Of a stretch of 64,000 nt of DNA, positions 14,441 through 52,054 are shown piece by piece. The notes below the pieces were generated by a model. That model worked only from the letters and a program-made list of their open reading frames with translations. It did not search any database and was not told where the DNA came from. The translations under genes and the position numbers were made by a program. Numbering within the stretch: the stretch's first letter is position 1; every line of letters begins with the position of its first letter. This DNA comes from Bacteroidota bacterium (lineage in GTDB: Bacteria; Bacteroidota; Bacteroidia; Chitinophagales; LD1), in contig JAFDYN010000008.1 in NCBI GenBank assembly GCA_018267385.1, positions 126,622-190,621 of the forward strand, read 5' to 3'.

Positions 14441-14483
14441 GGCATAAAAAAGCTTCCTGCTAGCCCGGAAGCTTTTTTATGCC
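14441..14483. terminator. bidirectional intrinsic terminator
   Basis: AAAAAAGCTTCC and GGAAGCTTTTTT form a strong stem, extended by GGCAT/ATGCC, with a T run on either strand. It serves the lipoprotein gene on plus and bshC on minus; the bshC stop codon lies inside it. Confidence 0.88.
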
Positions 14484-16045
14484 TGATCGAGATTGACCAC
14501 CAGCATCGCTCGTTGCATTGGATCAGCAGCATCCACGATGTGCCGGATATACTGCGGATCTTTCAGATAAAAAGATGAGAAGTTTTCTATCCGCTCCTGC
14601 CAGGAGTTCATAGGAGCAATAGCAGCATGCAAGGCTTTAATCTGATTGATCGCGTCTTCTTGTTTGCGCTTTTCGGCTTTGACTATACGCCCTTCCAGCG
14701 CTTGAAGTGCATTGAGTTGCTTTTGCTTCTCAGCCAGTACCGTACCTTTCAGCGTCGGGTCCACAGTTTCTGCTTTGATGGCCATAGAGTCGTACAACGC
14801 TTCCAGGCTCTTAGTCTCCTCATCAAATTGCATCTCTGCAGAGAGCTTTGACTTGACAAAGTTGCTGATCAGTGTATCAATATTGCCGAAGAAATCTGCG
14901 ACGGTCAGTCCCAGCTTTTCGAGTTTGCGCAGCTGGCTTGTATTGAGCACAGTCATAGAGGTACGCACCACCAGCATCGGATAGTTGACCTTGTGATGCT
15001 CAAAGACGGGCTTTAGTTCCAGCCAATAACTCAGTTCGCCTGCGCCACCTATGAAGGCAAGATTAGGAAGGATCATCTCCTGATAGACGGGACGCAGGAT
15101 GACATTGGGGCTGATAGATCCCCACCTCTCCCCCTTTCCCTCTCCAAAGGAGAGGGGAAGGTATGATCCATCCTTCCTTGTGATTCGCTCACGAGAGTTT
15201 TCACCTAAAAAGAAAAGATTGATCTCCCTCGGCGTAGCCTGCACAGAATAGTTTGTCTCCAGCCATTGCAAGGTAGAGTCGAGTACCTTGATAGCCGATG
15301 AGTGCTCTAACTCATCCTTAATGATTGGCGCAAAGCGCTGTTTCAGTTCTGCATCATCCTGGTCTATCACCACAAGGCCTGTGTCGGCAAAGAGTTCATT
15401 GATGACATAGCGCGTATACTCACCGAAGCGCGTGAACTTGTCTAAGCCCGCGCGCAGTTTATCTATAAGTGGCTTGCCAGCCTCTCCCAGTATCAGCTCT
15501 GCCTCATTCAGCACATTCACAAAGCTATCTAGCTTCCGGCGGCCATAGGCACCCCCCTCCCCTTCTGCCGCGGGCCATTCTATCTTCTTTCCATAGATAT
15601 AGGTCGTGCCCAGCTCCTCAAAGTCATGGTCCTCACTACCCATCCAGAAGACAGGCACAAAGTTCTTCTCCGGATACTTAGCCTTGAGCTGGTTGGCCAG
15701 ATTGATCGTAGAGCTGATCTTATAGATATTGAAGACTGGCCCGAGCATCACACATGGCTGATGCGCGGCAGTGACGGTGAAAGTATCAGCAGACAGCAGC
15801 GACTCGATACTGAGCTTCGTCTTGTCTGATGCGTCTATATTCTCGTACTGCTTCTTCAGCACAGAGACGAGCAATGGACGGTCTATCGGGTCTTTGGCTT
15901 TGTCTGCCATGACCTGGGCGAAGGCATCAATATTGAGGTCGTATTTATAAAGATGACGTAGCGCGGGGTGGCCGCTGATATAGTCGGCTACCAGCCTGCT
16001 AAAGCCGGGAATAGTAGTAAGCGGTATAGTGGAAACAATGGACAT
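14477..16045 (-). CDS. bshC: putative cysteine ligase BshC (bacillithiol synthesis)
   Basis: A 522-residue protein matching BshC, which adds cysteine to glucosaminyl-malate in bacillithiol formation. Recognisable stretches are TAAHQPCVMLGPVFNIYK, FWMGSEDHDFEEL, SPNVILRPVYQEMILPNLAFIGGAGELSYWLELK and a C-terminal coiled coil. The ATG at 16045 was chosen because an upstream start (16138) adds a non-conserved tail. At residues about 297-309 the sequence LPLSFGEGKGERW is not BshC-like. It is the translation of a palindromic repeat that sits in frame where other BshC proteins, as I recall them, have a helical linker. The enzyme may still work, since flanking motifs are intact. It follows rimO with a 64-bp gap. 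Confidence 0.88.
   Translation of the reverse strand: MSIVSTIPLTTIPGFSRLVADYISGHPALRHLYKYDLNIDAFAQVMADKAKDPIDRPLLVSVLKKQYENIDASDKTKLSIESLLSADTFTVTAAHQPCVMLGPVFNIYKISSTINLANQLKAKYPEKNFVPVFWMGSEDHDFEELGTTYIYGKKIEWPAAEGEGGAYGRRKLDSFVNVLNEAELILGEAGKPLIDKLRAGLDKFTRFGEYTRYVINELFADTGLVVIDQDDAELKQRFAPIIKDELEHSSAIKVLDSTLQWLETNYSVQATPREINLFFLGENSRERITRKDGSYLPLSFGEGKGERWGSISPNVILRPVYQEMILPNLAFIGGAGELSYWLELKPVFEHHKVNYPMLVVRTSMTVLNTSQLRKLEKLGLTVADFFGNIDTLISNFVKSKLSAEMQFDEETKSLEALYDSMAIKAETVDPTLKGTVLAEKQKQLNALQALEGRIVKAEKRKQEDAINQIKALHAAIAPMNSWQERIENFSSFYLKDPQYIRHIVDAADPMQRAMLVVNLDQA
15123..15156 (+). repeat. palindromic repeat, solitary copy inside bshC
   Basis: The core CCCTCTCCAAAGGAGAGGG (15138-15156) is preceded by CACCTCTCCCCC. 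It is the same repeat, in the same order, as the two copies that flank the DUF559 insert in leuS. It is translated in frame from the minus strand. Confidence 0.85.
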
Positions 16046-17426: not shown

Positions 17427-17456
17427 AGTATTAAGTAGTTAGTATTAAGTATTAAG
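17427..17456 (+). repeat. four-heptad repeat, AGTATTA type
   Basis: Units AGTATTA, AGTAGTT, AGTATTA, AGTATTA in direct tandem (28 bp), then AG. It begins four bases from the rimO start codon. Confidence 0.85.
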
Positions 17457-17475
17457 ATGAAATGCACGACACCGC

Positions 17476-18461: not shown

Positions 18462-18465
18462 GAAT

Positions 18466-18495
18466 AGTATTGAGTAGTTAGTATTGAGTATTGAG
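18466..18495 (+). repeat. four-heptad repeat, AGTATTG variant
   Basis: Units AGTATTG, AGTAGTT, AGTATTG, AGTATTG in tandem, then AG. It begins five bases upstream of the ftsY start codon and differs from the copy at 17427 by the same A-to-G change in three units. Confidence 0.85.
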
Positions 18496-18542
18496 ACGAA
18501 TCACGTTAGCACACTATTTTATTCCGCCACTTTTGTACTGCT

Positions 18543-29143: not shown

Positions 29144-29246
29144 AGTATTAAGTAATCAGTATTAAGTATTTAGACTAATACACTTAGTACCTCTGATTTC
29201 GTTTGCTGCATTTTATCTTAATACTAAATACTAACTACTAAATACC
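29144..29246. repeat. inverted pair of four-heptad repeats, empty form
   Basis: The left copy (29144-29171) reads AGTATTA, AGTAATC, AGTATTA, AGTATTT. The right copy, on the minus strand (29246-29219), reads GGTATTT, AGTAGTT, AGTATTT, AGTATTA. Both continue with AGA toward the 42-bp interior, which holds no gene. The left copy starts three bases after the VWA stop codon. Confidence 0.85.
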
Positions 29247-29252
29247 ACTCTC

Positions 29253-48222: not shown

Positions 48223-48225
48223 ACA

Positions 48226-48675
48226 GGGAATAAGGAATAGGGAATAAGGAATAATGTTTGACGCGTCATACTTTATTGAGTTTTGCCTTTGCAGTCTTGA
48301 TGCCTGATGTCAATAGTTTTAAAAGTTCTTCCACATCTTTCTTCAATGATTCAAAAGGTGTTTCTTCTATAAATCCTGTTACGGCAAGAAGCTCCAGCCA
48401 ATATAAAGTCTCGTTAGCTTCCTTGATCGCGATAGAGCACTTATGTATAAAGTCCGGCCGTGTCTGAGCAGATTCTGACTCTCGCACCATAGCCCCTATC
48501 GCAGTGCCAGATCTCAGGCACTGCTTACTCATCACATATTCCTTCTTCGTCTCACAGAGATAGGTATAGAGTTTCACGATCCTTACAGCAAAGGAAAACG
48601 ATTTGCTCTTAGTAATACTATCCTTCATAAGTCCCCATTTGCATTTCTATTCCCTATTCCTTATTCCCTATTCCT
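48226..48675. mobile_element. four-helix-bundle gene cassette bounded by inverted four-heptad repeats
   Basis: The left end (48226-48253) is GGGAATA, AGGAATA, repeated twice. The right end (48648-48675) is the same 28-bp tandem in inverted orientation, shifted by one unit. The 450-bp unit contains one complete small gene (48266-48628) and fills the whole gap between the yhhQ start codon and the leuS stop codon. Mobility is inferred from the architecture. Confidence 0.7.
48266..48628 (-). CDS. four-helix-bundle protein (23S rRNA IVS / Avd-like family)
   Basis: A 120-residue helical protein of the TIGR02436/PF05635 family. Hallmarks are SFAVRIVKLYTYL, the QCLRSGTAIGAMVRESESAQTRPDFIHKCSIAIKEANETLYWLELL core and the C-terminal ELLKLLTSGIKTAK helix. 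Relatives are encoded in intervening sequences of 23S rRNA in Leptospira and others, or act as the Avd accessory protein of diversity-generating retroelements, where they bind nucleic acid as pentamers. No rRNA or reverse transcriptase is nearby. The gene is wholly inside a pair of inverted heptad repeats. Confidence 0.92.
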   Translation of the reverse strand: MKDSITKSKSFSFAVRIVKLYTYLCETKKEYVMSKQCLRSGTAIGAMVRESESAQTRPDFIHKCSIAIKEANETLYWLELLAVTGFIEETPFESLKKDVEELLKLLTSGIKTAKAKLNKV

Positions 48676-48676
48676 T

Positions 48677-51600
48677 TTAAACAACCACATTCACTATCCT
48701 ACCCTTCACAAAAATGAACTTCTTTGGTTCTTTACCCTCTGTCCATTTCAGTACGACATCATTCGCCAGCACGGCTGCTTTCACTTCTGCTTCGCCCATA
48801 TTCAAATCAAACTGCAGATTAGCCCGCACCTTGCCATTGATAGAGATCGGATAGCTGAATGAGCTTTCCACCAGGTACTTTTCCTCTACGGCAGGGAAAG
48901 TCGCCTTATGAACGCTATCGCTGTGACCGAGTGCCGCCCACAGTTCATCACTGATGAAAGGTGCAAATGGCGCAAGTGCGATCACCAGCGGCTCCAGTAT
49001 CGCACGCTTGGTACACTTCAGCTCGATCAGCTCATTGGTACAGATCATGAACTGGCTCACGCAAGTATTGAAGGCCAGGCGCTCGATGTCTTCTGATATT
49101 TTCTTCAGCGTCTTGTGCAGCACTTTATATTCTGCATCGGTAGCCGCCTCATCGCTCACGCGTGATGCGCCTTTATCATCATAGAATAGCCTCCAGAACT
49201 TACGCAGGAATTTCGCCACGCCATCTATGCCCTGATCATCCCACGGCTTAGACTGATCCAGCGGCCCGAGAAACATCTCAAACATCCGGAAGCAATCCGC
49301 ACCATACTTCTCTATCACATCATCAGGATTGACGACGTTGTATTTGGACTTGGACATTTTTTCGACAGCGAAATCCACTAAGTATTCCTGATTATCATTC
49401 AGGATAAAAACAGACCTTTCAAAATCAGGTCTCCATTTTTTATAGCCTTCTATATCTAATTTGCCGTCCTCCGCTAGCCTTATGTCCAAGTGCCAATCAT
49501 TTATTTTGACATTGTCCCAAAAAACATTTTTCGCATCTCCACCATACTCTTTTATTAAATCTTCAATTAGAGTAGTTAATCGGGGAGTGATTACTTTCCC
49601 ATTACTCAAATAGTCATTATAGAATTCCTTTGAAACAAATACATATGGCACTTTATGAACTGTAGAATCACTTGACTCCCAACTTAGCAAATACACAAAC
49701 TTACTCACCCCCTGTATCATCCCCTGATTCACCAGCTTCTGAAACGGCTCCTCTGTAGGTACATAGCCCAGGTCATGCAGGAACTTGTGCCACATACGGG
49801 AGTACAGCAGGTGGCCCACCGCGTGCTCGCTGCCACCGAGGTAGAGGTCTACATTCTGCCAATAGTCTATCTTCTCCTTCGCCGCAAAGGCATCCGGATT
49901 ATTCGGGTCCATATAGCGCAGGAAGTACCAGCTAGAGCCAGCATAACCCGGCATCGTGTCAGTCTCGCGCTGACCATGTGATGTATTCACCCAGTCGGTT
50001 GCATTGGCCAGCGGTGAGCGGCCATCGCCTGATGGCTTGTAGCTCGTCACGTCTGGCAGCACGACCGGCAGCTCGCTCACCGGCAGTGGGTATGGCAGGT
50101 CACCCTTGTACACGATCGGAAATGGCTCACCCCAATAGCGCTGGCGGCTGTAGCCCGCATCACGCTGGCGGTAGTTCACCTGGCGCTTGCCTATGCCGAG
50201 CGCTTCCACTTTCTCCAGCATGGCCTTGATCGCATCCTTCACCTCCATGCCGTTGATGAAGTCGCTATTGATCATCTTGCCGACCTTGTCCTCTATGGTC
50301 GCGCCGGGATACATGCTTTTGTCTATCACTTCTATCACCGGCAGGCCAAATTTCTCCGCAAACTTCCTGTCGCGCTCATCATCTGCCGGTACGGCCATGA
50401 TGGCACCCGTGCCATAGCCCGCCAGCACATACTCCGCCAGGTAGATCGGTATGCGCGCGCCGTTGAATGGATTCAGCGCATAGCTGCCCGTGAAGGCACC
50501 CGTCACGCGCTTCTCCTGCTGGCGCTCTATATCGCTGCGGCTCTTTACGTAGGTGATGTAGTCGTCTACTTCCTTCTGCTGTGCAGGCGTGGTCAGAGAT
50601 GCTACGAGCTCATGCTCGGGGGCTATGACCATAAAGGTCGCGCCGAAGATGGTATCAGGACGGGTTGTAAAAACAGCCACCTCACCCCCCGCCCTCTCCA
50701 AAGGAGAGGGAGCTAATACATCCTCATTAGTTTCTGAAGTGATAGCGCCATCGTAAGGGACATCCGGCAGAGAGTCTAACCTGGACTTGATCTGTTGGAT
50801 AACATTATCAATGTTTGCAAATACAGCTTCGTTCTTGAAACGGATTATCTCGAAGCCGAGCCGTCTCAAGTCACTTGTTCTCTCCTGATCAGCTTCTTGT
50901 TGATCATTGTGGATCGGACCATCTATTTCGATTACTAGACGTTTGAGAATGCAAACGAAATCTGGGATATACGAACCGATCAAATGTTGCCTTCTGATCT
51001 TATGACCAGTAGCATTACCTCTTAATCTCTGCCAAACTATTTCTTCGGCCTCTGTCGGATCATGTCTGTGCTCTTTAGCCTTTTCAATATTGGCATTCCA
51101 CGACAAAGGATCGGTGTGGTAAAAACCCGGCTTGCCTGTATTTGTATTTAAGCCCTCTCCTTTGGAGAGGGTTTGGGTGAGGTTAAACTGGATGATTGCC
51201 CCCTCTGACCTGCCTATCCAGTTGCGCTGCATATCCTTCATGGCTTCGCTCCAGTCCAGCGTGTCCAGCCCGCGCAGCAGGCGGTCAGAGTACTCGGTGA
51301 TCCTCAGGAACCACTGCCGCATCTTCCTCCGCTCTACGGGATAGCCGCCGCGCTCAGACTTACCGTCTTTCACCTCATCATTGGCCAGCACGGTGCCCAG
51401 CGCCTCGCACCAGTTCACCTCGCTATAGCTCTGGTAGGCCAGGCGGTAGTGCATCAGTATGTGTTGCTGTTCTTCTTCAGAGAAGCCTTTCCACTCCGCT
51501 GCGGTGAATGGCGCATGGTCTTCTTTATCAAACTGCGCAAAACCATCCGTACCACTTTGCGCAAAGCGCGCGATCAGCGTGTCGATGCTTTCTGCCTTAT

Positions 51601-52054
51601 CCTTTTCACGATTGTACCAGCTGCCAAAGAGCTGGAGGAAGATCCACTGCGTCCACTTGTAGTAGCTTGGGTCACAGGTCTTGACCTCGCGGCTCCAGTC
51701 ATAGCTGAACCCGATCTTGCCCAGTTGCTCCTTGTAGGTGGCGATAGCCTTGTCAGTAGTGACTTGTGGTGGCGTACCGGTCTCTATGGCATACTGCTCT
51801 GCCGGCAGGCCAAAGGCGTCAAAGCCCATCGGGTGCAGCACGTTGAATCCCTTGAGCCGTTTGTAGCGGGCATAGATATCAGAGGCCACATAGCCCAGCG
51901 GGTGCCCCACATGCAGGCCCGCACCGCTCGGATACGGGAACATATCCAGCACATAATACTTTGGTTTCGAGGCATCTTCAGTCACACGGTAGATCCCCTT
52001 ATCCTCCCAGTCTTTGCGCCACTTCTTTTCTATGGCTCTGAAATCGAACTCCAT
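48677..52054 (-). CDS. leuS: leucyl-tRNA synthetase with an in-frame DUF559 insertion
   Basis: A 1125-residue class I synthetase, about 170-200 residues longer than the phylum's usual LeuRS. HIGH box HVGH lies in PYPSGAGLHVGHPLGY. The editing domain has TTRPDTIFGATF and GTGAIMAVPADDERD, and KMSKSKYNVVNP marks the end of the catalytic core. At residues about 291-458, between RNWIGRSEGAIIQF and VFTTRPDT, a complete DUF559 nuclease domain bounded by palindromic repeats is inserted without breaking the frame. A second stretch (residues about 788-895, before KMSKS, where the leucine-specific domain lies) is visibly AT-rich. LeuRS is essential, so this gene probably yields active enzyme. Confidence 0.95.
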   Translation of the reverse strand: MEFDFRAIEKKWRKDWEDKGIYRVTEDASKPKYYVLDMFPYPSGAGLHVGHPLGYVASDIYARYKRLKGFNVLHPMGFDAFGLPAEQYAIETGTPPQVTTDKAIATYKEQLGKIGFSYDWSREVKTCDPSYYKWTQWIFLQLFGSWYNREKDKAESIDTLIARFAQSGTDGFAQFDKEDHAPFTAAEWKGFSEEEQQHILMHYRLAYQSYSEVNWCEALGTVLANDEVKDGKSERGGYPVERRKMRQWFLRITEYSDRLLRGLDTLDWSEAMKDMQRNWIGRSEGAIIQFNLTQTLSKGEGLNTNTGKPGFYHTDPLSWNANIEKAKEHRHDPTEAEEIVWQRLRGNATGHKIRRQHLIGSYIPDFVCILKRLVIEIDGPIHNDQQEADQERTSDLRRLGFEIIRFKNEAVFANIDNVIQQIKSRLDSLPDVPYDGAITSETNEDVLAPSPLERAGGEVAVFTTRPDTIFGATFMVIAPEHELVASLTTPAQQKEVDDYITYVKSRSDIERQQEKRVTGAFTGSYALNPFNGARIPIYLAEYVLAGYGTGAIMAVPADDERDRKFAEKFGLPVIEVIDKSMYPGATIEDKVGKMINSDFINGMEVKDAIKAMLEKVEALGIGKRQVNYRQRDAGYSRQRYWGEPFPIVYKGDLPYPLPVSELPVVLPDVTSYKPSGDGRSPLANATDWVNTSHGQRETDTMPGYAGSSWYFLRYMDPNNPDAFAAKEKIDYWQNVDLYLGGSEHAVGHLLYSRMWHKFLHDLGYVPTEEPFQKLVNQGMIQGVSKFVYLLSWESSDSTVHKVPYVFVSKEFYNDYLSNGKVITPRLTTLIEDLIKEYGGDAKNVFWDNVKINDWHLDIRLAEDGKLDIEGYKKWRPDFERSVFILNDNQEYLVDFAVEKMSKSKYNVVNPDDVIEKYGADCFRMFEMFLGPLDQSKPWDDQGIDGVAKFLRKFWRLFYDDKGASRVSDEAATDAEYKVLHKTLKKISEDIERLAFNTCVSQFMICTNELIELKCTKRAILEPLVIALAPFAPFISDELWAALGHSDSVHKATFPAVEEKYLVESSFSYPISINGKVRANLQFDLNMGEAEVKAAVLANDVVLKWTEGKEPKKFIFVKGRIVNVVV
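50679..51183 (-). mobile_element. DUF559 (Vsr-like) nuclease cassette with inverted repeat ends, inside leuS
   Basis: Both ends carry ACCTCACCC pointing outward, followed by the palindrome CCCTCTCCAAAGGAGAGGG (50692-50710 and 51153-51171). Between them is a DUF559 domain (LeuRS residues about 309-430): TEAEEIVWQRLRG, RRQHLIGSYIPDFVC, LVIEIDGPIHN and LGFEIIRFKNEAV, with PD-(D/E)xK-type acids intact. Its frame has no ATG or GTG; only a TTG (51106) could start it. Translation probably depends on leuS. The whole is about 505 bp. Confidence 0.85.

Follow-up and report, generated by a model that had tools for sequence, protein, structure and literature searches.

What is the palindrome that is translated within bshC, and how did it come to lie in frame in a conserved gene? 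The locus belongs to the window, by which we mean the whole 64,000-nucleotide stretch of DNA analysed here. A sequence-only reading of the window had placed a 19-bp core with its flank in frame inside bshC and twice in leuS, and had taken the bshC copy for a non-autonomous form of the leuS element that tolerates or prefers coding sequence. We followed the repeat through its source genome (G000; 4.55 Mb in 27 contigs), the other members of the genus (G001–G006) and their relatives.

Identity of the repeat

The core, CCCTCTCCAAAGGAGAGGG, is found exactly at 15138–15156 with the flank CACCTCTCCCCC immediately before it, and the stretch reads LPLSFGEGKGERW ahead of SPNVILRP, just as that reading had it. 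Two further exact copies lie in leuS, at 50692 and 51153, and their reported translations are likewise correct (LTQTLSKGEG and APSPLERAGGE), so that the three window copies are translated in three different frames within two genes that are indeed conserved, BshC matching TIGR03998 and LeuS matching TIGR00396 (Table 1). A search of both strands of the window at up to three mismatches returned six rows, which are the same three palindromes read twice, against a mean of 0.01 in shuffled sequence. The genome-wide count gave 42 exact copies in G000, and 90 at up to two mismatches, whereas the reversed-pattern control gave none. Chance similarity was ruled out by the window shuffles together with this control.

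Table 1. Coordinates of the bshC and leuS features within the window
Feature	Position	Strand	Evidence
bshC, bacillithiol biosynthesis cysteine-adding enzyme	14477..16045	(-)	TIGR03998, 375.7 bits, cut-off 265.8, E 4e-112
Replaced BshC segment, RERI to SPNV	15113..15181	(-)	23 codons vs 32–34 in 76/79 relatives
Solitary TM/PIT element	15125..15156	(-)	hairpin 15138–15156, 5-nt linker 15133–15137, third strand GGGAGAGG 15125–15132
leuS with in-frame cassette	48677..52054	(-)	TIGR00396, 940 bits
TM element, one cassette end, third strand on outer side	50680..50710	(-)	exact copy
DUF559 nuclease domain, in frame in LeuS	50777..51085	(-)	PF04480, E 1.2e-30; NF007294
TM element, inverted, other cassette end	51153..51182	(+)	exact copy

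All 42 exact copies were retrieved with their flanks and compared side by side. The shared motif consists of a hairpin, CCCTCTCC-NNN-GGAGAGGG, and a third strand, GGG(A/T)GAGG, and this purine block follows the hairpin on a consistent side in 40 of the 42 copies, at a gap of 2–5 nt in 23 of them and of 18–38 nt in the other 17. The bshC copy has the full form, which on the coding strand reads CCCTCTCC TTT GGAGAGGG AAAGG GGGAGAGG. Its RNA duplex fold is moderate (z of −2.4) and was given no weight.

Elements capable of forming intrastrand triplexes are known as TM or PIT elements (Holder et al. 2015, PMC4666352; Hoyne et al. 2000 as cited there). In the available part of that article the Escherichia coli letters are given as CCCTCTCCC...GGGAGAGGG-TTA-GGGTGAGGG (its Table 1), the loop ranges from 1 to 6 nt, and all 23 E. 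coli TMs are intergenic. The bshC copy is a perfect GC-rich hairpin with a pyrimidine 5' arm, its purine third strand mirrors the stem, its loop falls within the same range, and its family is dispersed in many copies (42 exact, none for the control). It lies in frame and not between genes, the intergenic position being a constant habit in E. coli and not a defining feature. Because the hairpin with its mirrored third strand follows the same grammar, and the letters match those of the E. coli elements as far as the available text gives them, the repeat is, judged by its sequence, a TM/PIT intrastrand-triplex element. The kind of repeat is thus a known one, and what is unusual is the place of the bshC copy.

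Each of the seven genomes of the genus has 20–58 exact cores and other members of the family have 0–33; beyond the family such cores hardly occur (2 of 30 genomes). Among three intergenic TMs that were examined, one is common to G000, G001, G004 and G005 and absent in G002, and the site of another G000 TM is rearranged in G004 and G005.

Placement relative to genes

Six of the 42 exact copies lie within coding frames, a number read from the rows of a rough coding score whose training set was 22 ORFs of the window, and they fall in four genes: bshC (one copy), leuS (two) and a related gene pair (three). The function of the pair is unassigned, the one member tested having no NCBIfam match. The remaining copies are intergenic or sit at the outer edge of a frame. 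At the usual bacterial coding density most copies would be expected in genes, and the repeat therefore avoids them. The earlier suggestion of a preference for coding sequence is not borne out, whereas that of tolerance holds: 19 of the 42 copies, including that of bshC, are open in all six frames, compared with 181 of 5000 random 36-mers, and the repeat tolerates translation since no reading frame of its stem contains a stop codon.

Other repeats are present in the window. Perfect inverted copies of AGGGAATAAGGAATAGGGAATA at 48225–48253 and 48648–48676 enclose the DNA that separates leuS from the next gene, and another dispersed, AT-rich repeat (AGTATTAAGTAGTTAGTATTAAG) occurs in direct and inverted orientation at 17427–17466, 18462–18500 and 29144–29250.

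The BshC segment that holds the repeat

BshC comprises 522 residues from the conserved methionine and was aligned with 22 relatives; the protein was found in 55 of 60 relatives, and 30 loci, that of G000 among them, were aligned. Segment length was compared over 79 readable loci of 80 taken from named genomes. Between RERI and SPNV the segment has 32–34 residues in 76 of the 79, the exceptions having 31 (UBA1941, the G005 sequence), 23 (SZAS-58, the G001 sequence) and 21 (L214). In G000 and G001 it has 23 residues, and the TM encodes the majority of these. The ordinary segment, conserved as ...F(S/T)xxEL..HPERFSPNV..., is present in the BshC structure 4wbd, where it ends HPERFSNNVVTRP and which we take to be the Bacillus subtilis enzyme, and is gone from the G000 protein. 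The idea that the repeat is plain conserved protein sequence, with the segment kept as such in distant species, was rejected on the basis of 4wbd and of the 79-locus comparison.

The sequence-only reading had left it between added and replaced residues, and the alignment decides for replacement: nine codons were lost in G000, the replacement being larger than the TM itself, and these comparisons show that the TM took the place of a conserved segment and did not lengthen it. They likewise show that its presence in bshC predates the split of G000 and G001, the sister species G001 having the TM at the same place. An AlphaFold2 model computed from 23 sequences has a mean pLDDT of 91.6, and the sole run of at least three residues below 50 comprises residues 299–306, SFGEGKGE. 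The TM is thus predicted to lie, probably, in an uncertain and exposed loop of BshC.

tRNA gene ends in the same segment

In three other members of the genus the same segment holds the 3' ends of tRNA genes, all of them in frame. Identities amount to 53 of 56 nt between the G004 segment and the 3' half of tRNA-Lys(TTT), to 31 of 32 nt (with an unbroken run of 28) between the G005 segment and tRNA-Arg(ACG), and to 28 of 28 nt between the G003 segment and the tRNA-Glu(TTC) gene of G004; the local scores are 47, 29 and 28, respectively, against at most 11 in shuffles. These patches are near the ancestral length, at 31–33 residues. The copied pieces continue beyond the last base of the tRNA into the flank of the gene, without CCA, and the donor was therefore gene DNA or a precursor. 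Among 109 BshC segments the T-arm signature was found only in G003, G004 and G005 (six rows, each species twice). When the 28 tRNA genes found among 322 loci (1.47 Mb) were used as queries against these loci, the other matches outside tRNA genes were confined to one split tRNA-Arg locus in G000. Two places on contig C11 of G000, 30984 and 81602, hold a 3' half of tRNA-Arg(ACG) at one and a full tRNA-Arg at the other, about 50.6 kb apart, and this pair resembles the termini of an element that has integrated into the tRNA gene.

With this segment left out, the BshC tree pairs G002 with G003 as sister species (86%; support 100/99) and groups G000 with G004 and G005 (100/100). G002 keeps the ordinary segment, which calls for two or more independent tRNA events or else for one loss; on this tree the G003 patch is either an event of its own or was lost in G002. 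Comparison of G002 with G003 by eye places the start of the tRNA-Glu piece after ACAGA and its end in TACT(T/G)GAG, letters that are common or nearly common to the old segment and the tRNA gene. The G003 junctions would fit copying by way of short matches at both ends, in this one case with short matches that were read by eye.

The leuS cassette and other DUF559 hosts

The leuS element proved to be a DUF559 (Vsr-like) nuclease domain between two inverted TMs. The bshC copy, which has no DUF559 of its own, is a lone representative of the repeat flanking the LeuS domain on both sides, and the description of it as a non-autonomous form of the leuS element fits. Two further DUF559 domains were found in G000. 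One is in frame in IleS (contig C9, L044 2452–6309) between CCCCCAAAGGGGG-type palindromes; the other is a free-standing gene (contig C11, L045 3742–4170) with 30-nt inverted arms and with neighbours that, by ORF reading, look like sufB- and sufC-type genes. The IleS of contig C9 also has a second, small palindrome-like pair nearer its C-terminus (LSPQTPKGGL...APFGGLGA).

LeuS was searched in 24 genomes. Each of the five other genus members whose LeuS could be read (G001–G004 and G006) has the cassette, G005 having no full LeuS match among the matches listed, and it occurs also in G017, G025, G026, G027 and G057. No TM scar was found at the cassette-free LeuS site in the eight relatives in which this site was readable (five more gave no pattern match). 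Four cassette-free sites (G011, G016, G018 and G021) have different in-frame 9-nt tandem repeats, and the LeuS loop therefore gathers repeats too. Other proteins with DUF559 in frame, according to NCBIfam, are UvrA, MetH, HsdR, HsdM and PglX-like methyltransferases, and at locus L284 the domain shares one frame with a PurQ-like protein, at the end of that protein.

Association of DUF559 with TM-like hairpins

DUF559 loci were scored for pyrimidine 5'-arm hairpins within 220 nt on both sides, a criterion that was set after earlier results had been seen. Both flanks carried such hairpins at 54 of 64 loci (25/28 in relatives, 23/26 in the phylum and 6/10 on plasmids), counted singly although many are homologous (LeuS, IleS), so that the counts are not independent; the remaining ten loci failed. 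The same test was passed by 5 of 1000 random sites, 0 of 23 BshC loci and 1 of 13 RAYT/Y1 loci. Loci that were too short or rich in N were dropped, leaving 28 scored of 29 listed (from 32) in the relatives; the test covered 26 of the 30 phylum loci and 13 of the 20 RAYT/Y1 loci, and 10 of 43 matching plasmid records were examined. An earlier arm test, which penalised loops, gave a score of at least 13 at 26 of 31 loci in the relatives and at 9 of 26 in the phylum, many of the failing loci having visible palindromes. The strict TM architecture, with outer third strands on both sides, was seen at 23 of 64 loci (8/28, 11/26 and 4/10). Inverted TM-like hairpins thus bracket DUF559 at most loci, the leuS gene of the window having exactly inverted TMs. 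Plasmid positives include Alphaproteobacteria, Cyanobacteria and Deinococcus, and the letters of the hairpins differ among lineages.

By genome, DUF559 is present in all 13 of the 60 relatives that have at least nine exact cores. It is absent from 5 of the 23 relatives with exact cores, each with one or two copies, and present in 18 of the 37 without them. In E. coli MG1655 the DUF559 gene ycjD has at its 3' side one of the 23 TMs listed in the available part of the published account, and a second hairpin overlaps its stop codon (L267 1404–1441 and 1596–1620); ycjD is not bracketed by TMs and fails the hairpin test. Of 5426 E. coli genomes, 3365 have the gene. In one ycjD-free region a TetR-type regulator and an efflux system take the place of sapF downstream of fabI, so that this region is no clean empty site and carries no information on ycjD.

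Origin of the bshC copy

On balance we favour an explanation in which TM elements are mobilised by DUF559 nucleases and bshC received its lone copy through templated repair. TM hairpins would stand to a mobile DUF559 nuclease as REPs do to RAYT transposases, serving as its ends and its non-autonomous partners; the nuclease would act on the hairpins, repair would spread them, and a solitary TM would be the non-autonomous form. In bshC, a break or a stalled fork in the tolerant loop would have been repaired by brief copying from a hairpin-forming donor, either a TM or a tRNA gene, by means of a few matching bases on each side. Presumably only in-frame patches survived because bshC is under selection. 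That tRNA ends and a TM met the same fate suggests that the hairpin of the donor matters rather than its identity, though the TM may have arrived by a route other than that of the tRNA pieces.

Among the alternatives, a MITE-like insertion into bshC followed by in-frame deletion of its flank, with no templated replacement, fares best and is still unlikely. The repeat family is dispersed, the loss of nine codons, with a replacement larger than the TM, would suit insertion and then deletion, and the GGATC found to either side of the bshC copy might represent a duplicated target, but the right-hand GGATC reads GAATC in G001. Moreover, the tRNA patches of G003–G005 stayed near the ancestral length, which insertion and deletion would have to achieve three times.

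Distinctly less probable, in our view, is that the palindromes belong to the REP elements and owe their movement to a RAYT (Y1) transposase, with DUF559 a bystander. REPs are the best-known hairpin repeats of such size, 48 of the 60 relatives have Y1 transposases, G000 has five, and inverted arms were seen at 6 of 13 RAYT/Y1 loci. However, none of the five Y1 loci of G000 has the pyrimidine hairpin within about 1 kb or more on each side, the arms in the relatives are other sequences, some ending GGTAG, and the hairpin test separates the two groups of loci (1/13 for RAYT/Y1 against 54/64 for DUF559).

More doubtful again is the view of the bshC copy as a scar left by a lost DUF559 cassette: other G000 genes do hold cassettes in frame, but none was seen in the 79 readable BshC segments, and all eight readable cassette-free LeuS sites lack a TM scar. 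An assembly or binning artefact is scarcely credible even though the five named genus members are all metagenome-assembled genomes, because both BshC flanks lie on one contig with open frames in G000, G003, G004 and G005 (930 kb in G005), the TM is common to two metagenome-assembled genomes, and three carry three different tRNA ends.

A wider reading may be entertained tentatively, for which we would put the chances somewhat short of even: DUF559 would be the missing mobiliser of TM/PIT elements across phyla, the pair would spread by templated patches at tolerant loops of conserved genes, and other hairpin donors would be copied as well, turning tRNA ends into in-frame protein. The available text of Holder et al. 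(PMC4666352) links TMs to instability, names no mobilising enzyme and does not contain the word DUF559. No published account of the DUF559–TM link or of the bshC tRNA patches was found in a search that was not aimed at tRNA pieces and had most subscription journals outside its scope. A nuclease that travels with TMs makes their spread testable. Within one genus, the bshC loop has had four donors (one TM and three tRNA genes) written into it in frame, and this series offers natural material for studying how short structured DNA rewrites proteins.

Comparison with known systems

Rickettsia palindromic elements are palindromes of tens of bases that lie in frame in conserved genes; they are longer and add residues. 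The bshC copy resembles them as a palindrome in frame in a conserved gene and differs in that residues were replaced, the segment being at least nine residues shorter than usual, and in having the letters of TM elements. The REP/RAYT system comprises many short hairpins, inverted pairs and one gene flanked by the same repeat. TMs likewise are short multi-copy hairpins that form inverted pairs and flank one gene with identical repeats, but the gene is a DUF559 nuclease instead of a Y1 transposase, and the arms are GC-rich, with pyrimidines and a third strand.

Homing endonuclease genes and inteins place nuclease domains at fixed sites beside conserved motifs in essential genes, and the DUF559 domains of LeuS and IleS similarly sit at a fixed site next to a conserved motif in an essential gene. 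Unlike inteins, the DUF559 cassettes showed no splicing domain, no intein family being among the NCBIfam profile matches, and the host protein is apparently produced with the nuclease still in it. The E. coli TM/PIT elements, as the available part of their description presents them, share with the G000 repeat the grammar of hairpin and third strand, near-identical letters and an occasional arrangement as inverted pairs; unlike them, some G000 copies lie within the reading frames of conserved genes and flank a nuclease on both sides.
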